64,000 nt of DNA from Ehretia macrophylla. Its lineage: Eukaryota; Streptophyta; Magnoliopsida; Boraginales; Ehretiaceae. Positions within the stretch are counted from its first letter, which is position 1, and every line of letters starts with the position of its first letter. Below the pieces are notes generated by a model that searched no databases, was not told the origin of the DNA, and was given only the letters and a program-made list of their open reading frames with translations. Positions 24,823-30,653 of the stretch are shown here, in pieces. The stretch lies in the NCBI GenBank assembly GCA_037974665.1, contig CM075777.1, forward strand, positions 11,555,001 to 11,619,000. The letters run 5' to 3'. A program made the translations under genes and the position numbers.

Positions 24823-24962
24823 GATGTGGCAATAATAAGCTGGCCTAAGCTCACGAACATGAAGTTCAAAAAGAGTTCAAGTAACAGGTTGGGATGTGGC
24901 AATAATAAGCTGGCCTAAGCTCACAAACATGAAGTTCACAAAGAGTTCAAGTAACAGGTTGG
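24823..24962 (+). repeat. 70-bp tandem duplication
   Basis: Units 24823-24892 and 24893-24962, starting GATGTGGCAATAATAAGCTG, differ at only two positions. Confidence 0.9.
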
Positions 24963-27075: not shown

Positions 27076-27429
27076 TGTTATGAACGGAGAAGACTCAAAG
27101 TAGCCCAACTCAAATGTTATTAAAGATGATACGAAAGGTCCAAGAAGGAGGACAAGGCCCAAATGTCAGCCCAAGTATTTGAGTGAGTATGTGGATAGTT
27201 AGTTATAACTGGGCGTGGCATGTGTGAAGTGAAAGAATATATAAGCTGTGATACCATAGAGAGAGCTAAGAAAAGATCCACTTTATTTTTATAGCTTCTT
27301 CTTTGTTTCTTCTTTGTAGTTGGAATTCTGTTTCTTTTTTTTTTTTCATTTACAGAAATTCAATCAATACAACCTCACTTTAGCTCCAATCGTTTAATTA
27401 TTCCGCTCCTTAACATCCAAACTGTTACA
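27076..27429 (+). repeat. 5' LTR of the gene-capturing retrotransposon
   Basis: Begins TGTTATGAACGG and ends CTGTTACA. A TATA box (ATATATAAGC, about 27237-27246) sits at a sensible distance from the 3' end. A primer-site-like TTGGTGCTTTCATTGA follows at once, as in several plant gypsy families. No partner LTR was found in the window, so the start is inferred. Confidence 0.6.
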
Positions 27430-27449
27430 TTGGTGCTTTCATTGACTCT

Positions 27450-27815
27450 ATGGCCGAAGGTACCGTACTCAACGCCATGGATGACACGGAAATGAAGCTT
27501 CTGCAAACTACAACACAAAATACTCGAAAGCTTGATGGCTTTCAACAAACACTTGGCGACCTCGTTTCTAAGCTCACGGCAATTGATGGCAAACTCGATA
27601 AGTTGCAGCTCCTTGTGGAGAAATTCGTGGCGCCGAATGCCCTTTTATCTACTTCTTCAATAGCCACCCATGGTGATCCCACACATTATGATGAACGCAT
27701 AACTTCTTATTTCAACGGCCACGTGGCCTTCTTCTCAATCCAGCCACCGCTTAAACCACAAGACCCTTTGCCGTCATCTTCCAACTTCGGCAAAGAGCTT
27801 GAGTCTGACCTCTAA
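27450..27815 (+). CDS. Gag-like N-terminal ORF (121 residues)
   Basis: ATG 20 bases after the LTR end, the usual place for a gypsy gag start. It encodes a heptad-like helical region (residues about 10-60, e.g. LVSKLTAIDGKLDKLQLLVE) as in the N-terminus of plant Ty3-gypsy Gag, then a short unrelated tail ending in TAA. No capsid core or zinc knuckle follows. The tail probably marks the junction with captured sequence; the next frame opens only 22 bases later. Confidence 0.5.
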   Translation: MAEGTVLNAMDDTEMKLLQTTTQNTRKLDGFQQTLGDLVSKLTAIDGKLDKLQLLVEKFVAPNALLSTSSIATHGDPTHYDERITSYFNGHVAFFSIQPPLKPQDPLPSSSNFGKELESDL

Positions 27816-27908
27816 AACCTCGACAACGAAGGTGAGTTGGATACTCGATCCTCAATTCACGTCGATTGCACCCTCGACTACGAGCGAGCGAAAGAAGAGA
27901 AAACCCTG

Positions 27909-29100
27909 ATGGCTTTGGTAGCACATCCACTGCAACTACCCTACCACCACCACCTCTACCTACCCATCCATAAAACATACCTCCAACATAAAATACACTC
28001 AACACATTTCTTTAAACCAACTATTTCCCTTTCCACACCAACGCACCAATCAAGCCTTTGTGAAACCTCATCATTACCCTCTTCAGCTCACCATGTTTCC
28101 ATACTTCAACACATAACAAGCCTTTGCGAAACCAAGAACCTTCCAGAAGTGTTATATTTCTTCCAGCATAATCAAAACGACACGTCGCTTGACGTATCTC
28201 AAAAAGCGGAGGCCATTGTTGTACTCTTACAGGCATGTGGCCAACAAAAGGACATCACAACAGGACGCGAAATGCACCAAAGAGTCTCCAACTCGACCCA
28301 TTTGAGAAACGATTATGTGTTCAATACACGAATAATCACAATGTACTCATTGTGTGGGTACTCATCTGATTCTCAATTGATTTTTAATTCATTAAAAAGG
28401 AAAAATCCTTACCAATATAATACCCTTTTGAGTGAGTATGTGAAGAACGAATTTTGGCATCAGGCATTGTTTGTCTTTTACGAGTTAATAGAGGTGTCAA
28501 TGTATATGACAAATAATTATACGATGCCCTACGTGATAAAGGCCCTACGTGATAAAGGCGTGTAGTGGGCTAATGGATGTCGGTTTAGGTGAGGCTATTC
28601 ATAGGATGGTAGTAAAGATGGGGTTGAGTGTTGATGTGTTTGTTAGCAATGCCTTGATTGTTATGTATGGAAAATTTGGGTTTGTTGAGGAAGCGTTGAA
28701 AGTGTTCGATTTTATACCTGAGATGAACTTGGTAACTTGGAATTCAATGATTGGAGGTTATGCTAGGGAAGGAGATGTGAATGGAACATTTGTTCTGTTG
28801 AGAAAAATGCAAAGGTTTGGAGACTGTGTGAAGGTTGATGTGGTCACCATTTTGAGTGTATTGTCTGTTTGTTTAGATGAGTCAGAGCTGTTGAATGTGA
28901 AGGAATGTCATGGGTATTCTATTAAACATAGGTTTGAATACAATGCATTGGTCGTGAATGCAATCGTTACGGCATACGCAAAATGTGGCTCTTTGTGTTT
29001 TGCTGAGCAAGTCTTTTATGGTATAGAGAACAAGAATGTGAATTCTTGGAATGCAATAATTTTTGGGTCTACTCAAATTGGTAGATTCAACAAGGCGTTG
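27909..29100 (+). pseudogene. PLS-class PPR gene fragment, frameshifted
   Basis: Starts with ATG at 27909 and a Ser/Thr/His-rich leader, then PPR motifs in the PLS style (TRIITMYSLCGYS, AIVTAYAKCGSLCFAEQVF). From memory of the family it is closest to the Arabidopsis At1g18485 type, a long E/DYW-class organellar RNA-editing factor. Only the first third is present, and a middle block is deleted between GNALI/WNSMIGG and LLRKMQ. A perfect 16-bp tandem duplication (28526-28541 and 28542-28557) breaks the frame; without it TMPYVIKACSGL would be continuous. No E or DYW domain. It cannot make the normal protein. Confidence 0.8.
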
Positions 29101-29257
29101 GGTGCACTTGAATTGGACGATTGGGTAAGGTCTTGGATTAAGCTATTTGCTCTAATACTTTATCGGAATATAGGTATTTGGAATGCGATAAAATTATATA
29201 GTAATGAGGAATTGTATAAGGATATGCATGAAGGAATGAATGTGCGAACTATGGTAG

Positions 29258-29531
29258 TGTCTGAGTTGGTTTCCGATGAGAAGTGGAAAGGGCAGATTGC
29301 GAAGGATTTGCCTAGAAAATTCACAGGGCATCCTGCTCTGGATGAAGATGGAAGAAATGCTTCGAGACGTCTACTAACAGCATTTGCTCGTCATACTTTT
29401 GATGTCGGCTACTGTCAGGCCATGAATTTCTTTGCGGATCTATTATTGCTATAGATGCTGGAAGAAAATACATTTTGGACATTGAGGAACATTATTGATG
29501 ATTATTTTGATGGTTATTATTCAAAAGGGTC
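29258..29531 (+). pseudogene. TBC (Rab-GAP) domain fragment
   Basis: Reads WKGQIAKDLPRKFTGHPALD, then VGYCQAMNFFADLLLL and FWTLRNIIDDYFDGYY. These are the conserved central blocks of plant TBC domains, GTPase-activating proteins for Rab GTPases in membrane traffic. The arginine-finger position is degraded or absent, and the domain is cut at both ends. TAG at 29452-29454 interrupts a Leu run before MLEEN. No intron is present in this stretch, which suggests an mRNA source or a single exon. It joins the neighbouring PPR fragments without a spacer. Confidence 0.8.
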
Positions 29532-29549
29532 TACGTTATTCAGAAATAG

Positions 29550-29829
29550 GTATTATAGGGCTAAGAAAATAGAGGAGGCTGAGAAGTATTTTGTGGAAAT
29601 AATAGGGAGGAATATAGAGCCTACGGTGATAGCGTATACGACTTTGATAAAAGGATATATTTCGATTGGACGTGTTGATGATGCATTGAGAGTGTTTGAA
29701 GAGAGGAAGAGTTATGGGATCAAGCCAAAGGCTGTGACATACTCGATCTTGTTGCCTGGGCTTTGTGATGCAGAGAAGATGTCCGAAGCTAGAACTATAT
29801 TAAGGGAGATGGTTGCAAACCGTCTGCTT
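29550..29829 (+). pseudogene. P-class PPR gene fragment
   Basis: Two to three PPR motifs: KKIEEAEKYFVEIIGRNIEP, IAYTTLIKGYISIGRVDDAL and VTYSILLPGLCDAEKMSEAR. They are in frame with the preceding TBC fragment after its stop. The LLPGLCDAEKMSEAR block recalls the Arabidopsis At2g37230 type (recall, not a search). It is a different PPR subclass from the fragment at 27909, so it comes from a separate source gene. Confidence 0.72.
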
Positions 29830-29845
29830 AGACTAGTTCACATGG

Positions 29846-30556
29846 ACAACTCGAGCTTGGAGAACATTTCATTTCCCAGCTGCATTTTTCTTGGCCTCGG
29901 GTGTTAGGTGTTTCTTAGTCCCCTGTTCGAGGTAACAGAGCTATTTTCGCAAGCTACAAAGACTCTGCAGGCCGGATACAAAAATTTGCCATGCGCTTTC
30001 CGAACGCCTTTAAATCATAATCATTTGTCAATTCTGTAACGACCCGACTCCCCACGTGGAGCCCACGCAGAGTCTCACCGAGCCGTCACTACCCAGGAAT
30101 TGTCCGCTATTGGCGGTCCCTGGCCCGCAGGCACAAGTCCCTCACGGTTTTGTCCTCTCGAGAATCTCTTCTCAAAAGGGCCCTGGGCTGATATAAGAGA
30201 CTAACTCTTATATCCAGCTCTCTCACTTCCAAATCTTTCGATGTGAGGATTGTGTTACCACAAATTCTCTGAAGGAAAGCTTAAAATATGTGAAGACTGC
30301 TGGGCATCAATACTACATCACATACTCAGTCACAGAATGGGCTAACCATGTATCCTATTACTAACTTTGAAGATTACATCTATCCCACTGGCAATCAAGA
30401 TCCCGTAGTGCAACCTCTATTGGATGAGAGAGTGCAATATAAATCTTCTGTGGAAAATAGACTTCTTCATGACCATCGACAGGTGTGCCCTGTTTTACCT
30501 CCAAGTTTCACAAGCTACTGTGCTGATTCTTGTACTGAGCCACATCAAGACTAGCA
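29846..30556 (+). pseudogene. Probable PHS1 (POOR HOMOLOGOUS SYNAPSIS 1) fragment, split by a solo LTR
   Basis: Protein-like pieces are HFISQLHFSWPRV, IFASYKDSAGRIQKFAMRFP, then after a 228-bp insertion SLKESLKYVKTAG, and finally NGLTMYPITNFEDYIYP and VLPPSFTSYCADSC. Their order and spacing match my recollection of plant PHS1, a cytosolic/nuclear protein needed for RAD50 localisation and homologue pairing in meiosis. Stops and frame changes are present (e.g. TAG about 29926). The identification is from memory and needs a profile search. No introns are evident. Confidence 0.5.
30035..30262 (+). mobile_element. 228-bp TRIM-type solo LTR with 5-bp TSD
   Basis: Begins TGTAACGACCCGACTCCC and ends GTGTTACCACA, flanked by the perfect duplication AATTC (30030-30034 and 30263-30267). 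It is GC-rich, and its ends and layout resemble a widespread plant TRIM LTR family ending in GATGTGGGATCTCACA-type sequence. It splits the PHS1-like fragment, so it arrived after the capture. Confidence 0.82.
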
Positions 30557-30653
30557 AAAGGTTATAGAGGAAGATGTCTTAGAGACTTGCCCAAATTTGA
30601 ACTTTGAGGAGAAGGTTCTCTCAAATGGGGGAGGCATAGATTCTTTTTTCTAA
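30555..30653 (+). pseudogene. Ty3-gypsy pol C-terminal tail and polypurine tract
   Basis: The frame reads CPNLNFEEKVLSNGGGIDS and stops at 30651-30653. Plant gypsy polyproteins commonly end with FPxFxLEDKVxxxGGGID after the chromodomain-like region, and AAATGGGGGAGG in the same bases would serve as the polypurine tract. It shares its frame with the preceding PHS1-like piece, separated by TAG at 30552. Confidence 0.5.

Follow-up and report, generated by a model that had tools for sequence, protein, structure and literature searches.

Spliced pieces of several host genes in a decayed LTR retrotransposon of Ehretia macrophylla and in its family of relatives

Layout of the element

The 64,000-nucleotide stretch of Ehretia macrophylla DNA analysed here (GenBank assembly GCA_037974665.1, contig CM075777.1, forward-strand positions 11,555,001 to 11,619,000), called the window below, contains a decayed copy of a long terminal repeat (LTR) retrotransposon. 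In this copy a 5′ LTR, a primer-binding site (PBS)-like sequence and a gag leader are followed by six sense-strand pieces of host genes, an unassigned piece and a Ty3/gypsy pol tail. An earlier description made from the letters alone, the sequence-only reading, had seen a lone element with fragments of four host genes. The window element proved to be one decayed copy of a large family, and the host genes are six, a ZIP4 piece (29229-29286) and a CUL3 piece (29803-29860) having been overlooked. The other contigs and loci of the genome are designated below by C and L numbers.

All features of the element are on the plus strand unless stated. The 5′ LTR (27076..27429) measures 354 bp and has the ends TG...CA (TGTTATG...TTACA); in the relatives the LTRs are paired. 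Directly after it lies the PBS-like sequence TTGGTGCTTTCATTGAC (27430..27446), kept in the relatives; TTGGTGCTTTCATTGA, which begins at 27430, fits a putative primer site in sequence and position. The gag leader (27450..27602) comprises the N-terminus only and matches the gag N-terminus of L037, a Ty3/gypsy element on C18 (tblastn, E 1e-14). The following stretch, of unassigned origin (27603..27890), is common to the family and aligns with L009-L012, L024 and L026; a stop at 27813-27815 closes the frame.

The first host piece is derived from a PPR-DYW gene (At1g18485-like) and is in two parts, 27891..28752 (87% to L015), with a frame change near 28540-28565, and 28730..29061 (92% to L015), which are joined over an internal deletion at a repeated 10-bp motif. 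An unassigned piece (29062..29228), common to L023, L030 and L039, separates it from 58 bp of ZIP4/SPO22 (29229..29286; 86%, E 1e-13, to the C17 gene L042). The TBC Rab-GAP piece (29277..29527) corresponds to four spliced exons of the C6 gene L034 and contains a stop at 29452-29454. It is followed by a P-type PPR piece (29544..29819), 90% identical to the C8 gene L036, the best by protein of three similar loci, and by a CUL3 remnant (29803..29860; 88%, E 4e-19, to the C20 cullin gene L048). The spliced PHS1 piece, preceded by a further frame change, is split into a 5′ part (29862..30035; 93-95% to the C15 gene L035) and a 3′ part (30265..30549; 87% and 95% to two further L035 exons) by a later, solo-LTR-like insertion of 228 bp (TGTAACGACC...TTACCACA; 30035..30262, no strand assigned). 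This insertion is flanked by the target-site duplication (TSD) AATTC (30030-30034 and 30263-30267), and the C11 copies of the family are without it. The Ty3/gypsy pol tail (..NLNFEEKV..; 30568..30640, 73 bp) ends in the purine tract AAATGGGGGAGG and aligns with the tails of L016, L019 and L023, which precede a 3′ LTR. No 3′ LTR was found for the window copy: the LTR search gave one match within the window (among the best 40 of 49 candidates), and the element stops near 30640. The insertion and the missing 3′ LTR had gone unmentioned in the sequence-only reading, as had the preserved reading frame discussed below; the LTR-like and primer-site-like sequences, the gag-like frame and the pol tail with its purine tract were present at about the places it gave.

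Pfam searches recovered PPR (3e-17) and RabGAP-TBC (2e-10) in 28540-29451 and PPR_2 (1e-24) in 29455-29904; the gag open frame gave no Pfam hit, and two frames after 30014 gave no curated hit. Together with the parent genes on C15, C6 and C8, these hits secure the PLS-type PPR, TBC Rab-GAP and P-type PPR pieces that had been named from the letters.

Parent genes, spliced copies and relatives

Genes matching all six pieces are present in the same genome, on C15, C17, C6, C8, C20 and C15 in the order of the pieces, and are still about 85-97% identical to the captured segments. With parents spread over five contigs, the pieces were assembled in trans, and capture of neighbouring genomic DNA is rejected. 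The PPR-DYW parent L015 was considered as another family element and discarded: it is an intronless gene of 1033 codons on C15 with a DYW domain, the At1g18485 orthologue by name, and its nearest database protein is from Camellia (64%). The TBC parent is 87-97% identical by exon, and the P-type PPR parent has two similar loci besides. The PHS1 parent, on C15 far from the PPR-DYW gene, covers 29862-30035 and 30265-30549, the identity being 93-95% except in one stretch of 87%; as the PHS1 piece of the relative L016 is recognised as PH_PHS1 (Pfam, 6e-29), an assignment first given as probable is now firm. The longer ZIP4 pieces of L039 and L040 carry Pfam SPO22 and ZIP4 protein names. ZIP4/SPO22 and PHS1 are meiotic genes, and ZIP4 was captured at two separate parts, one in L039/L040 and the other in L044/L045.

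The pieces are spliced wherever their parents allow a judgement. The TBC piece runs continuously across three introns of its gene, all joins fitting GT-AG with 33-37 of 40 bases matching, and a Thioredoxin_6 piece of L016, which we take to be PDI-like, is without five GT-AG introns (36-39 of 40 bases matching at the joins). Judged by exon gaps only, PHS1 in the window is without three interruptions of its gene, ZIP4 is without one interruption in L039/L040 and one in L044/L045, and the epimerase piece of L039/L040, presumably DFR-like, is without two. The parents of the PPR-DYW, P-type PPR and CUL3 pieces are open across the copied part, and these three pieces, like the 58-bp ZIP4 piece, are uninformative on splicing; the earlier statement that no introns interrupt the pieces thus holds for TBC and, by exon gaps, for PHS1, and says nothing for the other four. 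Every parent-matched host piece in 17 elements is in sense orientation. The sole antisense match at E <1e-3 is a gag leader in L024, where a second, inverted leader lies within the mosaic at 1834-1998 of the element.

The parents of the PDI-like and TBC pieces (L032, C6:52041400-52044000, and L034, C6:52126500-52129500) are separated by about 85 kb and have opposite orientations despite capture in trans, for which we offer nothing beyond chance.

The window LTR aligns over its full or near-full length with 15 other places at 85-89% identity (among the best 40 of 49 candidates); a single duplicated cluster on C11 accounts for 14 of these. The gag leader gave 281 candidate places genome-wide; of the best 40, one is the window itself and the remaining 39, at 87-91% identity, are spread over ten contigs. 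The 16 relatives examined have paired LTRs that are 88.6-99.7% alike and are 3.1-4.0 kb long, with L012 rearranged. Read by eye, the 5-bp TSD is exact at L011, at the C11 insertion (L019) and at L046, agrees at four of five bases at L009, L010, L023, L024 and L026, and is not clean at L047. The possibility that the C11 copies were independent insertions was rejected, six of eight having flanks 93.7-98.8% identical over about 400 bp; this likeness of the flanks indicates one insertion followed by segmental duplication. The region C11:23.1-24.9 Mb (L013, L014, L016-L022) thus holds one mosaic insertion in eight copies.

The ends are common to the family, and the serial fragments between them differ, amounting in total to about two dozen kinds of host gene. 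The C11 copies carry, by Pfam or parent match, tubulin, a bZIP-like gene (which we take to be ABF-like), PDI-like, TBC, P-type PPR, CUL3 and PHS1 pieces. L009-L011 carry PPR, TBC, EMP70 (under the cut-off) and WEMBL; L023 carries a sucrase/ferredoxin-like piece (under the cut-off), PPR, ZIP4, P-type PPR and cullin; L024 carries PPR and ANAPC2; and L026 carries a DEAD helicase, PPR and a phytyl ester synthase-type acyltransferase. HSP70, PPR, ZIP4 and epimerase are found in L039, the C-terminal half of a helicase in L040, and enolase, PPR, Clp_N, Mlo, ZIP4 and cullin in L044. Both elements chosen by the gag leader alone are mosaics, L046 with proteasomal ATPase, PNGase A and H+-pyrophosphatase, L047 with Ras/Rab, PPR, a protease-like gag-pol piece and TCP-1. 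Modules with sharp edges are common to elements whose remaining modules differ. Outside the elements examined, C4:14868720-14871347 is a relative of L044 (96% protein identity) with an open frame of 1100 codons, and the PDI-like piece recurs at C18:39.1-41.9 Mb (eight places, 72-81% protein identity) and at C7:87585998 (open frame of 690 codons), probably in another mosaic lineage.

The junctions give an order to the captures. The TBC/P-PPR/CUL3/PHS1 junctions are common to the window and the C11 copies, and the PPR/ZIP4 junction to the window, L023 and L039; the same joins recur between paired LTRs at unrelated genomic sites. Because junctions are common to relatives, the captures accumulated step by step, with recombination between members of the family, and were not made by the window element alone, as had been supposed. 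In L023 the P-type PPR piece is joined to 493 bp of CUL3 running nearly to the pol tail; in the window and the C11 copies the same join is followed by PHS1 after 58 bp of CUL3. The codons just 5′ of the tail in these copies resemble the CUL3 end of L023 and L044, the right-hand remnant alone not being significant (E 1.2). The simplest history would be one of nested capture, in which the central part of a CUL3 piece acquired earlier gave way to PHS1 mRNA. Microhomology is visible at three junctions: 11 bp at P-PPR/CUL3, 6 bp at PPR/TBC of L009 and the 10-bp repeat at the internal PPR deletion. A base-perfect signature of template switching was not found at every displayed junction, and four junctions could not be judged.

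Reading frame along the mosaics

Parent peptides were searched in all frames, and adjacent pieces of different genes in the 17 elements were counted by hand. Adjacent parent-matched pairs were in the same frame in 47 of 60 cases, for an expectation of 20 (P 1e-12 if independent). The pairs are not independent, L013, L014, L016 and L019 being copies of one insertion; with only the worst C11 duplicate (L019) kept, 32 of 45 pairs were in frame (P 2.5e-7), and the L009-L011 and L039-L041 groups still share some junctions in this count. Collapsing by junction type gave 20 of 26, a figure biased upward by taking the least decayed copy. Long open frames are found in L039 (1137 codons, LTRs 99.7% identical), L040 (1086 codons, 98.7%) and L044 (912 codons, 99.4%, with the gag leader in another frame).

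Five related copies were aligned over 543 codons. The only gaps are two of 3 bases, and four copies are without a stop. The NG86 dN/dS ratio was 0.58-0.97 in nine of ten pairs. As a yardstick, 11 LTR pairs show 132 substitutions and 9 frame-breaking indels. The internal branch of four copies, with about 97 substitutions over the 543 codons, had 0 stops where 3.5-4.3 were expected and 0 frame-breaking indels where 6.6 were expected (P about 2-4e-5). This test is independent of later decay. We read these numbers as selection that keeps the frame open while the protein itself is only weakly constrained.

Two other explanations of the frame bias have to be weighed. Part of the evidence could be taken to mean that the fusion proteins encoded by the long frames serve the element or the plant, the frame being held by selection on protein function: dN/dS is below 1 in most pairs, and the Bs1 element of maize is described, in the available part of the source, as a transcribed and translated chimeric gene (PMC13317346). 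This is unlikely to be the main cause, however, as several ratios are near neutral (0.97, 0.85, 0.80), different elements fuse quite different genes, domains are cut through (half a Rab GTPase, half a helicase) and, among 13 matches listed, no protein in a set of 5.8 billion covers more than 36% of the L039 frame. It is equally improbable that the bias is mainly an artefact of young copies not yet broken and of open frames having been examined first. The LTRs of L039 and L044 are indeed nearly identical, open frames were the starting point for annotating several elements, and length was part of the reason for choosing three, but youth accounts for the missing later mutations and not for in-frame joins of unrelated genes at birth. 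Moreover, the frame count used parent peptides in all frames, the old C11 insertion and the window copy still have most junctions in frame, and L046, chosen by its gag leader alone, has its five longest frames in one register.

Origin of the mosaics and comparison with known elements

The ends of the family point to Ty3/gypsy kinship. L037 on C18 is a 5.3-kb element with hits to gag, protease, reverse transcriptase, RNase H, integrase (rve) and SH3_Tf2-1; for Chromo it reaches 21.5 bits, short of the cut-off of 25.1, and none of its frames gave a recognised host piece. The ends of the family are matched by the gag N-terminus and pol tail of L037, whose LTRs show a likeness of 71-74% to the LTRs in the window and the C11 copies. 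In most relatives the pol tail matches L037; gag and pol tail thus belong with one relative and not with different families, a possibility left by the sequence-only reading. L037 is broken and shows kinship, not the helper itself. Reverse transcriptase, RNase H, integrase and chromodomain were not found in the window or the mosaics examined, where a protease-like piece (L023, L047) and an SH3_Tf2-1 piece (L047) were the only such remains; the family is therefore a chromovirus-type derivative and not a member. The clade of these ends may be Reina.

We propose that the mosaics are, very probably, non-autonomous chromovirus-type elements which capture spliced host mRNAs by template switching, and in which the open frame is selected more than the protein. 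Only the Ty3/gypsy ends are retained (LTRs, primer site, gag start, last pol codons and purine tract), and pieces of host mRNAs fill the middle. Element RNA and a spliced host mRNA would be packaged together in a particle of an autonomous relative; the reverse transcriptase would jump between the RNAs, sometimes at short matches, and back; and the hybrid cDNA would integrate to become a source for the next rounds. Repeated rounds, with switching among co-packaged family members, could then produce serial mosaics and nested captures such as PHS1 within an earlier CUL3. RNAs open from gag to pol tail would be favoured, so that frame-keeping captures persist. The cause we prefer, with a roughly even chance of being right, is that RNAs with a broken frame drop out through nonsense-mediated decay or because they are poorly translated. 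This decay pathway has been put forward as a defence against retroelements, and the part of the source available describes an element by which Rous sarcoma virus escapes it (PMC5031192); such a filter at the RNA level is thereby plausible, not demonstrated.

Several observations weigh against this proposal. About 3 bp (ZIP4/TBC) and about 16 bp (TBC/P-PPR) of unassigned sequence stand at the joins, and microhomology is not universal. L037, with LTRs of such limited likeness and frames broken into at least five, is a putative helper only. Thirteen of the 60 pairs are out of frame, among them the P-PPR/PHS1 pair of the window copy and, in the young L044, two of three; the young L041, L045 and L009 are broken and have no single frame; and L039, L040 and L041 were picked partly for long frames. 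The tenth dN/dS pair gives 1.88, on 16 changes, one stop is present in L031, and stops are present in two further copies, on C12 and C19. Finally, the family is known here from DNA sequence alone.

That the pieces came from genomic DNA, as serial gene fragments or processed pseudogenes or through a Helitron or Pack-type element, is hardly credible: the window copy alone, without its 3′ LTR and with a nested insertion, is readable as a patchwork, but introns are gone at exact splice sites, all parent-matched host pieces are in sense and the same junctions stand between paired LTRs at unrelated sites. Helitron or Pack-type capture was rejected on the missing introns and on the relatives, which end in LTRs instead of Helitron ends or terminal inverted repeats (no search was aimed at Helitron ends).

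A broader reading of the capture by template switching is more tentative, and we give it slightly less than an even chance. The large family may be a continuing exon-shuffling machine that samples germline mRNAs, joins spliced fragments serially and passes them through an open-frame filter on the RNA, by escape from nonsense-mediated decay or by translation for packaging; this filter, and not protein function, would keep the fusions in frame. New genes of about 1000 codons, each assembled from at least half a dozen host genes, would thereby arise continually. If this is true, the captures of the meiotic ZIP4 and PHS1 would point to meiotic cells as the site of capture. Exon shuffling by retroelements has so far been argued from few cases such as Bs1. 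One genome with many related elements of different ages and still recognisable parents makes the order of capture, the chemistry of the junctions and the fate of the frame directly readable, and as the keeping of the frame can be separated from the keeping of amino acids, it can serve to test whether RNA surveillance shapes the survival of chimeric genes. For annotation it is a warning, such frames mimicking real multi-domain genes of about 1000 codons.

Bs1 of maize, by the available part of its description, is an LTR element with exon-only segments of three host genes in a chimeric frame (PMC13317346). The likeness to the present family is by description, the Bs1 sequence lying outside the comparison; Bs1 is one element with three host genes, whereas in the family the sets vary from element to element, reach six or more genes and include a nested capture. 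Gene-carrying TRIMs such as GmaRetroS15 of soybean are likewise non-autonomous, with 5-bp TSDs and exon-only fragments of at most three host genes; they measure 1.2-1.4 kb, in contrast to 3.1-4.0 kb here, and the portion of the source available describes no frame from gag to pol tail for them (PMC4717578). LTR elements with captured genes have been surveyed in rice, sorghum and maize (PMC3726574, PMC2773423), with 20 LTR elements carrying gene fragments in 22 Mb of maize (PMC2773423); the available portions of these surveys report single captured genes, and no serial, frame-keeping family was found in them. Pack-MULEs and Helitrons also gather fragments of several genes but are DNA elements, and Pack-MULEs contain introns besides exons according to the part of the source available (PMC4717578); here the pieces are spliced and enclosed by LTRs. 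L037 itself, related by its gag N-terminus, pol tail and LTR, differs by its length and its reverse transcriptase, RNase H and integrase. Captured spliced genes in LTR elements are thus already known from Bs1, the gene-carrying TRIMs and the surveys in rice, sorghum and maize; what seems new is how far this goes within a single family, that the capture is serial and nested, and that the frame is preserved. A literature search, with subscription journals mostly outside its reach, found no publication describing such a family.

Apart from the element, the window contains at 24823-24962 a 70-bp unit in two tandem copies that are 97% alike.

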